NCBI GenBank assembly: GCA_031257715.1
Contig: JAIROE010000231.1
Coordinates: 1-16,079 of the forward strand
Direction of reading: 5' to 3'
DNA: 16,079 nucleotides
Source: Treponema sp.
GTDB taxonomy: Bacteria; Spirochaetota; Spirochaetia; Treponematales; Breznakiellaceae
The notes under the pieces were generated by a model, which saw only the letters and a list, made by a program, of their open reading frames with translations, was not told where the DNA came from and did no database searches. Shown here in pieces: positions 5,329-10,195 of this stretch (position 1 is the stretch's first letter; every line of letters begins with the position of its first letter). The translations under genes and the position numbers were made by a program.

Positions 5329-5561
5329 GCAGTCGAGTATATACCGAAAAAAGGAAACCGTGAAGGGGAATGAAACCGTTCTGTTATAAAAGAGCCAGAC
5401 AGAGGTCCCAAACGGCGGGACGGGAATATGATAGAGGCGCCGGTAAAGCGAAGGCTGTTCCGCGCCGCAGGCGGAAGAGCGGACAAGGCCTGACAGGAGG
5501 ACATTTGAGCATTCTTATGTTTCTATAGTCAAGGCATGTGACATTTTTAAAACAATGGACG

Positions 5562-5586
5562 TGTTCAAGAACCCGGCTGGTTCTTT
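5562..5586 (+). repeat. 25-base direct repeat, left copy
   Basis: Matches 9015-9039 at 22 of 25 positions in the same orientation. The core is GAAC, two variable bases, then GGCTGGTTCTTT; the arms AAGAACC and GGTTCTT form a small stem. A second shared word, CAAGTCTC, follows at 5589-5596 and again at 9060-9067. The pair brackets the restriction-modification genes. Confidence 0.7.
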
Positions 5587-5676: not shown

Positions 5677-6153
5677 TTAAGACTTATTGGTTTTATACTT
5701 TTCCGAAGTAATTTCCAGCCAAATACTGTCGGAAAGCAGCCAATCGGATACAGATTTTATTGTATTATTAATTTTTGACAATTGTTCTTTGCCTCTAATG
5801 GAGCATTCCCAAATAATGCATATACGCCAGCCGTTTGCGTGTAAATAATTCAAGACTTCCGCGTCTCTTTTTCTGTTTGTATCAATTTTGTCTGTCCAGA
5901 ACTTTTCATTGGAAGACGGAATTCTAAAATTGGGACAGCCAATATGACCATGCCAAAAACATCCATGAATAAAAATAACCGCATTATATTTTCTTAATAC
6001 AATATCAGGTTTCCCAAAAATTTTTCTGTCATTTATCCGGTAGCGGTACCCTGACTTAAACAGTCCTTTTCGAATTAATATTTCCGGCTTGGTATTCCTG
6101 TTGCGAATACCTGACATCATTTCGCTTCTCTTTTGAGAATTAACAATATCCAT
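5677..6153 (-). CDS. vsr: Very-short-patch-repair mismatch endonuclease (Vsr)
   Basis: A 158-residue endonuclease that nicks 5' of the T in T:G mismatches formed when 5-methylcytosine deaminates, starting short-patch repair. The residues known from E. coli Vsr are in place: Asp50 in KPDIVL, His63 in FIHGCFWHGH, His68 in the same stretch, and zinc ligands His70, Cys73 and Cys117. The later NEKFWTDKIDTNRKRDAEV block is also typical. Its length is normal. It starts five bases after the methyltransferase stop and so is in one operon with it, as is usual for Vsr proteins, which repair the product of their partner methylase. There is no clear ribosome binding site, suggesting coupled translation. 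The gene is A+T-rich compared with the genes outside the island. Confidence 0.95.
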   Translation of the reverse strand: MDIVNSQKRSEMMSGIRNRNTKPEILIRKGLFKSGYRYRINDRKIFGKPDIVLRKYNAVIFIHGCFWHGHIGCPNFRIPSSNEKFWTDKIDTNRKRDAEVLNYLHANGWRICIIWECSIRGKEQLSKINNTIKSVSDWLLSDSIWLEITSEKYKTNKS

Positions 6154-6158
6154 GGTTA

Positions 6159-7454
6159 TTAAATTAAAGGCTTTATTGCCTCTGCTATTGTGTGAAACAG
6201 AGGAACAACAACTGAATTTCCAAACTGTTTATATGCCCTCGTATCGGAAACGGGTATTATAAAATCATCTGGATAACCCATTAACCTGGCGCATTCTCGT
6301 GGCGTGAGCCTCCTGGGATTTTTCTTTTTCCCCTGATAAACAAGTATTTCGGAACCGTCTTTATAATACCGTGCTGATAATGTTCTTGCTATATCGTCTT
6401 TTTTTACCAGGCCAAATCCAAACCCATTCCCGGCCGCCTTGTGTTTCTCGGCATAACTTTGCAAATATTCCCACAAATGATCGGTAAGAGTATATTTATC
6501 CAGAACCTTTTTTTCCTTATGATTGAAATATTTGTCCTTGTCATGATCCAAAAAAGGCTCATGTCCGTCTTTTTTATGTAAAATATGAGACAGTTTTATC
6601 TCGCCCTTTGGCGGGTAATTAATATTTTCCAGTGAAAACAAGGTTGGCTCCCTGAAACCGACAATCACAATTCTTTCGCGATGCTGAGGAACCCAGCTTT
6701 GACCATCTATGACTTTATAATCAATGGTATAACCCAATTCCCGTGTTAATGTGCTGGTTATAACTTTAAATGTATTGCCTTTATTATGGGACTTGAGGTT
6801 TTTAACATTTTCAAGGACAAAGGCCTTTGGCTTTTTTTCTTTTATTATTCTTGCTACATCAAAAAACAAAGTTCCCTGTGTTAAATCGGCAAAACCCGTA
6901 GGGCAGCCCAATGCGTTTTTCTTGGAAACACCGGCTATGGAAAAAGGCTGGCATGGAAACCCGGCTAGAAGAACATCATGGCCGGGTATTTCTTTTTCAG
7001 AAATTTGGGTTATGTCTCCATATACAGGTTCATTGGAAGGAAAATTTGTTGTATAGGTTTTCCGGGCATAAGCATCCCATTCGCTGGTAAAAACACATTT
7101 CCCTCCAGCCAGTTCAAATCCTTTCCGTATACCCCCAATACCTGCAAAAAGGTCTATAAAAGTAAAGTGATATTCCCGGTTTTTAGCCTTAAAAGAAACA
7201 ATTTTTCTCTGGATCATATCGTATAGTCGTTCAAGATATATCGTTTTTAGTTCCACTTGGCCATTTAGCCACCTGTGAACCGTACTTGGGTTTACAGAGC
7301 ACTCTTGAGCTATTTCTGAAACATTGTAAAATTTTTCTATCTGTTCAAGAACATTAGATGTATTAAAGACTTGTTCAGGCACAATCCTCTCCCAAAAGGG
7401 AAACTTTCTTGCATTATGCAATAATTCTTCCCAATTTGTCAATGCCCTTTGCAA
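6159..7454 (-). CDS. Dcm-like DNA (cytosine-5) methyltransferase
   Basis: A 431-residue C5-cytosine methyltransferase. Motif I is FIDLFAGIGGIRKGFE (residues 99-114), motif IV AGFPCQPFS with catalytic Cys168, motif VI ENV (215-217), motif VIII QHRER (257-261), then RRLTPRECARLMGYPDDF and QFGNSVVVPL (motifs IX and X). Residues 40-66 form a helix-turn-helix (VSEIAQECSVNPSTVHRWLNG), also seen at the N-terminus of E. coli Dcm. Sequence style and the neighbouring Vsr and MvaI/BcnI-type nuclease point to a CC(N)GG-like site, but specificity is inferred. The TTG start at 7454 has no good ribosome binding site; upstream the frame stays open for about 12 codons without a standard start. It diverges from the nuclease gene across only 39 bases. 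Confidence 0.93.
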   Translation of the reverse strand: MQRALTNWEELLHNARKFPFWERIVPEQVFNTSNVLEQIEKFYNVSEIAQECSVNPSTVHRWLNGQVELKTIYLERLYDMIQRKIVSFKAKNREYHFTFIDLFAGIGGIRKGFELAGGKCVFTSEWDAYARKTYTTNFPSNEPVYGDITQISEKEIPGHDVLLAGFPCQPFSIAGVSKKNALGCPTGFADLTQGTLFFDVARIIKEKKPKAFVLENVKNLKSHNKGNTFKVITSTLTRELGYTIDYKVIDGQSWVPQHRERIVIVGFREPTLFSLENINYPPKGEIKLSHILHKKDGHEPFLDHDKDKYFNHKEKKVLDKYTLTDHLWEYLQSYAEKHKAAGNGFGFGLVKKDDIARTLSARYYKDGSEILVYQGKKKNPRRLTPRECARLMGYPDDFIIPVSDTRAYKQFGNSVVVPLFHTIAEAIKPLI

Positions 7455-7459
7455 AGAAT

Positions 7460-7487
7460 TTGATAAAATCAGGTAAAGACCGATAAT
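7460..7487 (+). promoter_or_regulatory. Putative promoter of the restriction endonuclease gene
   Basis: A -35 box TTGATA (7460-7465) and a -10 box GATAAT (7482-7487), each matching consensus at five of six positions, have a 16-base spacer. The predicted start falls at the ATG at 7494, so the message would be leaderless. The region also has to serve the divergent methyltransferase. Confidence 0.35.
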
Positions 7488-7493
7488 TTATGC

Positions 7494-8876
7494 ATGAATT
7501 TTAATAACTTCGAAAACATTGGACAATTTTTACTCACTTTGGGTGTTACAAGGGCTTTTTTCAAGCCCTTATCAGAAAATGACAATTCCAAGAATCAAAT
7601 TTATCTTGGTGGCAGTTTCAGCGTCTTGCAAGAAATACCTTTTGGTGAAATAAGGGAATTTCCAGAGGGCAGGAACCCTAACTATAAGGCAAATATCAAT
7701 TTTTGGTGGATTAATAACACGGGACAAATTTCCAAAGCCCCTAAAACACAACTTATATTATACACCAGATATCCGGAAGTTAGATTTTCCGGCTTCTTGT
7801 CAAATTGTCCTACAGCCCCCAATGAATATATGAGGGCTCCGGGTTTGGAAGAACGTCAAAAAAACAATGAAAAAGACGGCAGAGTTTTAATTTTTGGCGT
7901 TTGCCCTGATAATAGAATATATGGTTATCTGGCCACAAAAAATTCTTCATTGGCCAATTCAATTTTACATAAATTATTCAACGAAGAATGTAAAAAAACA
8001 ATACAAGACTTTCCTTTACAGGGTATTTCGGAAACGGGCAATTCTGACCTTGTAAGAAAACTTCGTGAAATAGTAAATGCCGGCTGGCATGAGTCAATTC
8101 GCCTTGACGCCAATGGCAGCGTAAAATCTTATCAGGCCGGAAATGGCGGCGGCTATACTCTTGAAGCATTATTTGGCATCGTTCCTAATGGTATTGCGGA
8201 ACCCGATTATAAAGGCTGGGAATTAAAGTCATTTTCCGGAGCAAGAATAACGCTTATGACACGCGAACCGGATAAAGGTTTTTATCATGAAAAAGGAGCA
8301 AAAGAATTTACTCTTAAATATGGTCATGATGCTGATGGTGTTAAAAAATATTTCACAGGAACGCATAAAGCGAACATTTTAAATACAATATCAAAGATGA
8401 CCTTGATAATAAAAGATTTTGATTGGAAGGCGTGGTCCATACCCCGGAGCTTGCTCCGGAAAATTTACAACCCGTAGAAAAGGTGTAAACCGGTTTTCGT
8501 ATCAGGGTATGGACCAAAGAACCCGCTCCACCGGTTCGCGGGGGAGAGTACAATAAATTTCCTATCCAACGAAGATACCCAGGAGCTTGCTCCTGGGTTC
8601 TTCATTAAACATTGGAGCCGCAAGCATTCGCAGGCATGTTATGTAAAATATATCATGGAAGAAAAAAATGGAAAGACAGGATATAAATATTTTTCTCCGG
8701 TCTATCTTGGAGAAAAAACAGACCTTTCTTTGTTTTTAAAAACGTTTCAGTCTGGTTTAATAGTCTATGATCCCGCGACAAAAGTAATGTTAAACAATAA
8801 TGTAAAAGCAAGAAGTCAATTTAGAATAAACTTTAAAGATTTGCATAATGAGGTTCTTTCAAAACTTCAGTTTTGA
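7494..8876 (+). pseudogene. MvaI/BcnI-type restriction endonuclease, interrupted by a palindromic insertion
   Basis: Codons 1-327 run from ATG 7494 to a TAG at 8475-8477. The MvaI/BcnI nuclease domain is clear: GNGGGYTLEALFGIVPNG (residues 217-233), then EPDYKGWELK, giving catalytic candidates Glu224, Asp238, Glu243 and Lys245. Residues 1-190 are an N-terminal region I do not recognise. After KMTLIIKDF the frame enters a 187-base repeat element (8420-8606), meets the TAG, then continues in the same frame through the element and back into nuclease-like sequence: FIKHWSRKHSQACYVKYI, then KYFSPVYLGEKTDLSLFLK, to a TGA at 8874-8876. So one gene has been split by an element carrying a single stop. 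Family members usually have more residues between the two flanks, so some host sequence may be lost. The product stopping at 8477 lacks the C-terminal part of the fold and is probably inactive. MvaI and BcnI cut CCWGG and CCSGG; the site here is not determined. Confidence 0.85.
8420..8606 (+). repeat. 187-base palindromic element, copy A, inside the endonuclease gene
   Basis: This stretch is repeated in inverted orientation at 9110-9297, with about 17 mismatches and one missing base; 13 of the mismatches fall in the central 8468-8504. It is built of two palindromes. The first has 12-base perfect outer arms, TGGTCCATACCC at 8433-8444 and its complement at 8505-8516, with a nested CCGGAGC-TT-GCTCCGG hairpin. 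The second is the hairpin GAAGATACCCAGGAGC with its near-complement up to 8603. Between them is a conserved link (8517-8568). From 8421 to 8606 it is 186 bases, exactly 62 codons, and keeps the host reading frame apart from one TAG at 8475. No transposase gene is present, so any movement would need outside help. Confidence 0.85.
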
Positions 8877-8882
8877 AAGAAC
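8853..8882. repeat. Perfect 13-bp inverted repeat across the endonuclease stop codon
   Basis: The arms 8853-8865 (GTTCTTTCAAAAC) and 8870-8882 are exact reverse complements around the loop TTCA. GAGG at 8850-8853 and CCTC at 8885-8888 lengthen the stem past a small bulge. It contains the last codons and the TGA of the endonuclease frame. It may be a transcript end signal or another inserted palindrome that replaced the native C-terminus. Confidence 0.75.
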
Positions 8883-9014
8883 AACCTCTAAAAAACACAG
8901 TTTTGCAGCCTGTAGGGCGAAAAACTGCAAGAGTTTCGGCAAAACTAACCGAGTTTTGCAAGAAGCTCAATTTGTATGAAAAATTTTATGAACAAATTGT
9001 GTAAATATTGAACT

Positions 9015-9039
9015 TGTTCAGGAACTTGGCTGGTTCTTT
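9015..9039 (+). repeat. 25-base direct repeat, right copy
   Basis: Same orientation as 5562-5586 and identical at 22 of 25 bases. In this copy a further 19 or so bases separate the repeat from the shared CAAGTCTC word at 9060-9067. Confidence 0.7.
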
Positions 9040-9109
9040 GTTAGCCTGCGGTTAGCTTGCAAGTCTCGCTGGGTTTGGCGGATAGCTGCCGGGGCAGCGG
9101 TATGTTGTA

Positions 9110-9297
9110 AATGAAGATACCCAGGAGCAAGCTCCTGGGTATCTTCGTTGGGTAGGAAATTTATTGTACTCTCCCCCGCGAACCGGTGGAGCGGGTTCTT
9201 TGGGCCATACCCCGATCCAAAAGGCGGTTTACAACATTTTCGGTGGTGGTAAATTTTCCGGAGCAAGCTCCGGGGTATGGACCCCGGCTTCCAATCA
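9110..9297 (-). repeat. 188-base palindromic element, copy B, inverted
   Basis: Read on the minus strand this matches copy A from its first GATTGGAAG to its last CTTCATT. Its terminal hairpin is perfect here: arms GAAGATACCCAGGAGC (9112-9127 region on the plus strand) and its complement around AA. The frame equivalent to the endonuclease frame in copy A is open throughout, and reads SIPRSLLRKIY, then PKNPLHRFAGESTINF, then NEDTQELAPG; where copy A has TAG, copy B has an arginine codon. It lies just downstream of the HDOD gene stop. Confidence 0.85.
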
Positions 9298-9334
9298 CTG
9301 TTTCCCAAAAACGGCAATTCGGGGACCTCCGGGT

Positions 9335-10195
9335 TCATAATTTCAAAAAAACCTGTGCCTTTTCAATTTCACCGTTTACAGTTTTTTCTATTTCCTCGAA
9401 CACATTTTTTTGTACGCCCAGGGTTTCCCAGATCGAATTATCTGTTTTTTCGGGATACCTGTCGCCCGAAAATCCCGTCTCCATGATCGAGGCAAAACGG
9501 TTCGCTGCAACTATGCTGAAAAGTATGTCCCGGTATCCACCTGAATAATCAAGGGGAGTATGATGATGAACAATCGTCTCGCCGACGGGACCTTCCAGCT
9601 TCCATGCCTTCACTATCATCGCACCTGAGGCGCAGTGGCTTATTCCCAGGGTTTTTTCTTCGGCGCGGTACAGCGATATCCGCTCACGGTCGGCGGCGCT
9701 GACGGTAAGCATGTACTCTTTGGAAAGCACCGCGTTAAGGGGTATTTTGCCTATGTCATGCAGAAGCCCTGCGGTAAAATATTCCTCTACCTGTTTGGGA
9801 TCTATTCCCCGCTGCTTCGCGAGGAGTTTGGCGGCAACACCGACGCACAGCGAATGCCGCCAGAAGCCCTCCATATTGAGGCCCTGAAAGTCCTTTTTGG
9901 CGGAAAGGCTCCCCATGACCGCAGTGGAAAGGGCAAGGTTCTTTACCGTATTGATTCCCAGCATGATGATGGCCCGGACAAGGTTCGTTACCTGCTGCCC
10001 AAGTCCGTAATAGGCAGAATTGATAAGCTTGAGTACCCGGCCGACAAGGACGGGATCAAGAGAAATGACATGGTTAAGATCCGCGGGACTCGTCTGGGGA
10101 TTGTTACAGACTTCCAGCACCTTGGCTACCGTAGTGGGAAGGCTGGGCATTTCCCTGATGTATTCTTTTATTCTTTCATTTAACACATCATTCAT
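9335..10195 (-). CDS. HDOD-domain signalling protein
   Basis: A 286-residue cytoplasmic protein made of one HDOD domain. HDOD proteins are HD-like regulators linked in many bacteria to motility, stress and signalling cascades; most are thought to work by protein binding. The N-terminal block REMPSLPTTVAKVLEVCNNP and the SLDPVLVGRVLKLINSAYYG block are typical. Unlike many HDOD proteins it keeps an HD pair in LLHDIGKIPL and a later IVHHHTPLDY, so catalysis is possible but unproven. Two in-frame ATGs exist. The one at 10195 is preferred, with GGGGA five bases upstream and a short overlap with the TPR stop codon; starting at 10201 would add MF. It is the last gene of the probable three-gene minus-strand operon. 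Confidence 0.85.
   Translation of the reverse strand: MNDVLNERIKEYIREMPSLPTTVAKVLEVCNNPQTSPADLNHVISLDPVLVGRVLKLINSAYYGLGQQVTNLVRAIIMLGINTVKNLALSTAVMGSLSAKKDFQGLNMEGFWRHSLCVGVAAKLLAKQRGIDPKQVEEYFTAGLLHDIGKIPLNAVLSKEYMLTVSAADRERISLYRAEEKTLGISHCASGAMIVKAWKLEGPVGETIVHHHTPLDYSGGYRDILFSIVAANRFASIMETGFSGDRYPEKTDNSIWETLGVQKNVFEEIEKTVNGEIEKAQVFLKL

Follow-up and report, generated by a model that had tools for sequence, protein, structure and literature searches.

How does a restriction endonuclease gene come to hold a palindromic repeat that its reading frame enters and leaves again in phase? The question is raised by a 16,079-nucleotide stretch of DNA from Treponema sp. (the whole of which is called the window here), in which a gene of the MvaI/BcnI type is interrupted in this way. 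The preliminary description of the window compared the interruption with the Rickettsia palindromic elements (RPEs) and suggested a family of repeats that invade proteins, probably in a spirochaete. The host assignment fits, the named homologues of the endonuclease (P0007, P0022) being from Treponema sp., and the insertion of a real palindromic repeat into the gene stands. The protein-invading part of the proposal does not, and we consider the element to be very probably a nonautonomous derivative of IS200/IS605-family transposons (those with a Y1/HUH TnpA), of the kind known as PATEs.

The interrupted endonuclease gene

In the list of open reading frames (ORFs), the endonuclease occupies 7494-8477, ending at a TAG at 8475-8477, and matches positions 2-103 of the Pfam family PF15515 (MvaI_BcnI; E 6e-20); positions 143-224 of the family are matched by 8478-8873 in the same frame (E 1e-10). 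The domain is therefore incomplete, being present as two separate pieces with approximately 32 residues replaced by the element. Exactly 186 nt (8421-8606) lie between the pieces, with the TAG as the sole in-frame stop, so that the frame does, as first described, enter a palindromic repeat and exit in frame 62 codons later. The features of the locus are as follows:

5677..6153, − strand: Vsr mismatch endonuclease, which looks intact (PF03852 positions 1-70 of 74, E 2e-29)
6159..7454, − strand: C5-cytosine methyltransferase, apparently intact, ORF of 431 codons (PF00145 positions 1-323 of 324, E 6e-89)
7494..8423, + strand: native N-terminal segment (310 codons) of the MvaI/BcnI-type restriction endonuclease (PF15515 positions 2-103; 75-76% identical to P0002, its closest homologue)
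8419..8423, + strand: TTGAT, the host pentanucleotide 5′ of the element, within conserved Phe-Asp codons (from left-end contexts and homologues)
8424..8605, + strand: copy A of the mobile element, 182 bp with palindromic ends, TGGAAGG...TTCTTCAT (from copy comparison and an empty site in genome G141)
8444..8459, + strand: left-end hairpin, 6-bp stem with a CTTG loop
8475..8477, + strand: in-frame TAG within a CCGTAG motif of the subfamily, found in the same context in six other copies
8571..8603, + strand: right-end hairpin
8607..8849, + strand: endonuclease, native middle and C-terminal part (PF15515 positions 143-224; alignment with P0002, L146, and L147)
8850..8968, + strand: second repeat, not related to the element, 119 bp long and with GAGNTTCTTNCAAAACT as its inverted ends, bounded by a 3-bp direct repeat (AAT at 8847-8849 and 8969-8971)
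8972..9004, + strand: C-terminal tail of the endonuclease, native but now out of frame, LYEKFYEQIV and stop (compare P0002, ...NNLYKNFYKQYV)
9111..9293, − strand: copy B of the element (183 bp), located between the endonuclease gene and an HDOD gene convergent with it, flanked by GTGAT at 9294-9298

The interruption is not a chance feature of the gene, because an inverted copy lies nearby (8420-8598 is 91% identical to 9119-9297 over 179 nt), because the stretch 8421-8606 folds as DNA with a z-score of −5.1 that none of 200 shuffles equals, and because matching sequences are found in a further genome (G001). An alignment with homologues, proposed at the outset, places both joints. In 10 of 10 homologues (alignment A2) the conserved FD or YD is separated from HW by 33 residues, a spacing with which L146 and L147 agree, compared with 62 codons (8424-8609) in the window, where the final Lys codon may be native. 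The FD/YD itself is kept in all 10, and L147 has TTTGAC and L146 TACGAT at the place of TTGAT. TTGAT at 8419-8423 is read as host sequence, position 8606 being ambiguous, and the element proper, originally placed at 8420..8606, spans 8424-8605, the length of which is not a multiple of three. Family sequence begins again at 8607, as had been stated, but approximately 95-96 native bases (∼32 codons) are missing to the right of copy A in the alignment with P0002, L146, and L147, and the site is not a clean insertion.

As the length of copy A is 2 modulo 3, its insertion alone would shift the endonuclease frame; to judge from the alignment, the frame survives only because the 182-bp insertion coincides with the loss of ∼95 native bases. 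The right joint could have arisen by deletion between short ATTA repeats, and L147 has an ATTA repeat at the corresponding position. A later mutation is an unlikely source of the TAG, as the same CCGTAG context recurs in six copies of genomes G177 and G044 (L078, L079, L080, L088, L090, and L035, L080 and L036 being the same copy). Since it belongs to a motif shared by a subfamily, the insertion of copy A was probably disruptive from the outset.

The second repeat, relatives of which occur in 147 of the 195 genomes compared from one spirochaete family, separates the last native endonuclease residues from those that precede them and puts them out of frame. Exact flanking repeats of 3-4 nt accompany 6 of 11 copies of this repeat, and none accompany the other 5. 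Elsewhere in the window, two stretches of 44 nt (5543-5586 and 8996-9039) are 77% identical and perhaps represent another dispersed repeat. The endonuclease looks like a pseudogene, because the element brings in a TAG and the second repeat breaks the 3′ end. That a protein is still made, through readthrough of the TAG or as two chains, would accord with the recognizable family sequence retained in both pieces; it is nevertheless extremely unlikely, given that the ∼32 residues present in 10 of 10 homologues are gone and the C-terminal tail is replaced by the second repeat.

Ends, hairpins, and target site

Copies of the element begin after (T/C/G)TGAT and finish with CTTCAT. The 55 end-to-end matches measure 115-216 nt, which is too short to encode a transposase. 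Within copy A, the right-end hairpin is strongly favored over shuffled sequence (z −6.8, 0 of 200 shuffles as good), and the left-end hairpin on its own only slightly so (z −1.3, 20 of 200 shuffles as good). In an alignment of 19 copies (A4), 95.6% of cells are paired in the left hairpin, 96.6% in the right, and 96.3% in both together, with changes on both sides of 2 of 6, 6 of 14, and 8 of 20 pairs, respectively, this compensation being owed largely to two copies (L086 and L047). None of 500 shuffles of the alignment reaches any of the five measures of pairing. An unconstrained RNAalifold prediction (36 pairs, 9 with compensated changes) retains the right hairpin and folds the left arm onto the core, and the left end of the element may fold in two ways. 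A structured RNA family was also considered and rejected, since Rfam gave no match at gathering scores anywhere in the window and none at E ≤ 0.1 within 7400-9700.

A search with a single pattern found four places with short copies of 46-47 bp, in which left and right ends are fused at a shared GGAGCTTGCTCC (L014, L015, and two in L122). The core of the element in the window contains a GC-rich palindromic piece of 30 bp (AAGAACCCGCT...CGCGGGGGAG) at 8517-8546 and in the matching part of copy B. This piece, which may itself be another small repeat, is present in some copies and absent in others, and one like it is found next to copy L006 but outside the element.

Among 64 distinct left-end contexts, counted over copies with a recognizable C(C/T)TCCA end, 47 read TTGAT, 9 CTGAT, 5 GTGAT, and 3 something else; the element thus adjoins TTGAT or a one-base variant, on the 3′ side, in 61 of 64. 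One clear empty site supports this as the point of insertion. In genome G141, an 82-bp copy (L125:2484-2565) sits inside a PDDEXK_2 gene, the pieces of which match the family at positions 4-142 and 150-224, and two paralogs (L150 and L151, 97% and 96% identical in DNA to the left of the site) carry the site without the element. The paralogs read TAGAT followed directly by GTGGAG, whereas the filled site reads TTGAT, element, GTGGAA; insertion therefore took place 3′ of the pentanucleotide without target duplication. Since both paralogs have TAGAT rather than TTGAT, the copy that was interrupted must have differed from them by one base. A further copy (L065:195-323) interrupts and frameshifts a Y1_Tnp gene in G001; compared by eye with L062-L064, it is consistent with precise insertion to within ∼2 nt.

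Distribution and position relative to genes

An exact 21-mer of the element was found in one contig of a species-genome collection, assigned to “Spirochaetaceae bacterium isolate Ncb351_bin73” (G001), and in none of the viral contigs searched. Scoring of 40 of the 91 first-look candidates in G001 gave at least 42 matches to the element. The wider search of spirochaete genomes that the preliminary description had proposed located the element in at least 100 of the 195 genomes from a single spirochaete family, that of G001 (E ≤ 0.001), a lower bound because at most four candidates were scored per genome. In an evenly drawn sample of the phylum, 2 of 392 genomes match at E ≤ 1e-6 (G001 and G141), both of which also belong to the family set. 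These spirochaetes presumably come from termite guts, to judge from the spirochaete family and the isolate name. A literature search, conducted mostly without subscription journals, found no earlier report of the element, which adds a family to an established type.

Like the present element, the RPEs are palindromic repeats of approximately 150-190 bp found in frame inside genes, and nearly half of those first described are reported to lie in ORFs as translational fusions, each encoding a conserved peptide (PMC10969869). A family of this kind, inserted in frame and translated as part of the host protein, would account for the 62 in-frame codons in the endonuclease, and three of the six reading frames of the element are free of stops in 18-20 of 55 copies, compared with ∼5 in shuffled sequences. 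These stop-free frames involve both strands and related copies, however, and we do not take them as selection for coding. The spirochaete family, unlike the RPEs as described (PMC10969869), avoids genes and has no frame preference. Gene-like sites hold 12 of the 54 copies with 400 bp on both sides, against 706 of 1,107 random points in the same loci (64%; p ∼6e-10); at two of the 12, L109 and L125, a single gene on both sides is supported. The exact lengths of the 38 copies (of 55) with both ends located, the end of L044 having been corrected by 5 nt, are distributed 15/11/12 over the three residues modulo 3; match lengths, which do not represent exact ends, are distributed 18/19/18 in the 55 copies.

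Frames of at least 70 codons are open on both sides, on one strand, in 13 of 66 copies (60 loci and the window). Pfam identifies the same gene on both sides at L125 and in the window endonuclease, and the assignment of L109 is backed by comparison with homologues. The L106 copy sits between two different genes, and for the nine other open-frame copies no Pfam family is common to both sides. These calls rest on open frames of at least 70 codons together with Pfam, such that genes without a Pfam match could be missed, and copies near contig ends can be judged on one side only. At L068 a subthreshold match to Uma2 on one side may mark the end of a decayed gene. The in-gene copies at L125 and L065 are frameshifted, and in the window copy A has 182 bp, with the endonuclease frame kept by a compensating deletion and a TAG common to the element subfamily.

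Elsewhere, two protein segments derived from the element are RPE-like. At L109 in G001 (L126:1622-1731 being the same place), a remnant of 109 nt (nhmmer E 2e-21; 78% identical over 104 nt) runs in frame and stop-free through a lipoprotein- or TPR-like ORF of 468 residues, which begins with what appears by eye to be a signal peptide and has weak, subthreshold TPR matches. The homologue in G046 aligns to residues 148-468 at 76% and to residues 1-52 at 58%, with only 45 nt in between, and the linker in G045, although of comparable length, could not be aligned. On these comparisons L109 comes closest to an RPE, in a linker that is hypervariable among orthologs. The other segment is the annotated N-terminus of an aldouronate-type permease (P0121), of which residues 1-24 correspond to the right half of the element in the endonuclease frame, so that the annotated start falls inside an element copy (E 0.09, from the protein sequence only).

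We searched 5.8 billion predicted proteins, considering those of 0.55-1.75 times the query length that share five-residue words with the query. The peptide in the endonuclease frame (residues 308-373) returned, among five candidates and at E ≤ 10, its own protein and the permease, and that in the L109 frame solely the L109 protein itself (P0122). The pattern that the preliminary description had set against its own proposal, with every other copy intergenic and random in frame, is nearly realized, the exceptions being the L109 remnant and the permease start. On the strength of the lengths modulo 3, the gene-avoidance control, and the protein searches, we reject an RPE-like protein invader as very unlikely. 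A weaker version, in which an IS200/IS605-derived element breaks genes and is now and then fixed as protein, is somewhat less improbable, though still doubtful. The ∼36 codons at L109 and the start of P0121 would be its successes and the endonuclease a failed instance, in which a stop-poor element and a frame-restoring deletion came close to providing a new protein segment.

Relation to IS200/IS605 transposons and proposed origin

Genes with a Y1_Tnp domain (PF01797, “Transposase IS200 like”) occur in 119 of the 195 family genomes, and the ends of some of the corresponding transposons resemble those of the element. Of 30 Y1_Tnp (tnpA) loci fetched, 8 have the right-end motif of the element above threshold, 80-83 bp 3′ of the Y1_Tnp match, and 2 have the left-end motif, leaving 22 and 28 loci, respectively, below it; L189 alone has both ends. 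The threshold was the best score among 2,000 random 320-bp windows of 20 other loci, and in the background the right-end threshold is exceeded at a single position, itself an element remnant, in L126. Judged by eye, the transposons of L189 and L167 span ∼576 and ∼578 bp, and those of L167, L181, and L189 are seemingly preceded by TTATT. With four stop codons in its transposase match and seemingly TTATT at its left flank, the L189 transposon is a relative rather than the proven partner. An intact tnpA flanked by TTGAT was not found. Between neighboring copies, no transposase was recognized by eye in the translated frames of L092, L100, and L108, and the interval between the two copies of L122 has no frame long enough to be listed.

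A different HUH-based origin, in which a domesticated TnpA associated with REPs (RAYT) spreads a REP or REPIN sequence, would suit an element that is palindromic and mostly extragenic, and G001 has Y1_Tnp genes (L062-L065) that we take to be RAYT-like. Of the five Y1_Tnp loci in this genome, only L065 has a clear element copy, which lies inside the gene. No clear copy flanks the gene at L061-L064, L062 having one weak match of 26 nt ∼300 bp away (E 0.004 to 0.03). Copy alignments contain no GTAG-type tetranucleotide before the palindrome, and long copies have two different hairpins ∼80-110 bp apart. For REP sequences, too, movement by HUH enzymes has been proposed (PMC8266576), and the element is like the REP/RAYT system (REPtron) in being palindromic, mostly extragenic, and linked to such enzymes, but it differs from that system as described there in lacking a GTAG-like tag, in being a composite with two ends, and in not clearly flanking the Y1_Tnp genes of G001 (PMC8266576). 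For want of clear flanking copies at these genes, we reject this origin as improbable. An ordinary MITE, with terminal inverted repeats and moved by a DDE transposase, would also be a short noncoding repeat, and a short imperfect match (GAAG...CTTC) is present near both tips of the element. The empty site without target duplication, the fixed 5′ pentanucleotide, and the subterminal hairpins speak against this reading, to which we give very little weight; the second repeat in the endonuclease gene illustrates how a repeat with inverted ends and flanking duplications appears in this DNA.

An IS200/IS605 derivation is consistent with what is known of related elements. The PATEs (palindrome-associated transposable elements) of Haloquadratum walsbyi are described as related to IS605-type transposons, with near-terminal palindromes, too short for a transposase, and without terminal inverted repeats or target duplication, and an IS605-type element of Haloquadratum also has a terminal-only version of 52 bp (PMC3119063). 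The match to this description is close: the spirochaete element shares a length too small for a transposase, near-terminal palindromes resembling those of the IS605 type, the absence of target duplication, and terminal-only forms through core loss, and differs in its bacterial host and its TTGAT-type flank, the likeness being one of description (PMC3119063). A PATE-like sequence with IS605 ends and no working transposase gene is reported from another bacterium, Halanaerobium hydrogeniformans, as a single sequence, compared with up to tens of matches per genome in many spirochaete genomes (PMC7290912). The TnpA of ISDra2, an IS200/IS605 element of Deinococcus radiodurans, inserts 3′ of TTGAT; ISDra2 likewise has secondary structures at both ends but, unlike the present element, is autonomous and encodes its TnpA (PMC2806898).

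We therefore favor the following history of the locus. A PATE-like element with no gene, a hairpin near each end, and insertion 3′ of TTGAT (or C/GTGAT) without target duplication would rely on a TnpA acting in trans, which would move it as single-stranded DNA. In the window, copy A would have entered 3′ of the TTGAT formed by the Phe-Asp codons of the endonuclease, and the ∼95 native bases to its right would have been lost afterwards, perhaps via deletion between short direct repeats, so that 182-bp insertion and deletion together restored the frame by arithmetic accident. The second transposable repeat would have struck the 3′ end of the gene.

We read the doubly interrupted endonuclease beside an apparently intact methyltransferase as a restriction-modification system becoming an orphan methyltransferase. 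For the spirochaetes, the element adds an abundant nonautonomous family derived from IS200/IS605, for which the flanking pentanucleotide, both ends, short terminal-only copies, and a single clean empty site are described. It also illustrates that an insertion may seem to keep the frame through a coincidence of lengths, here a gain of 182 bp and a loss of ∼95 bp.
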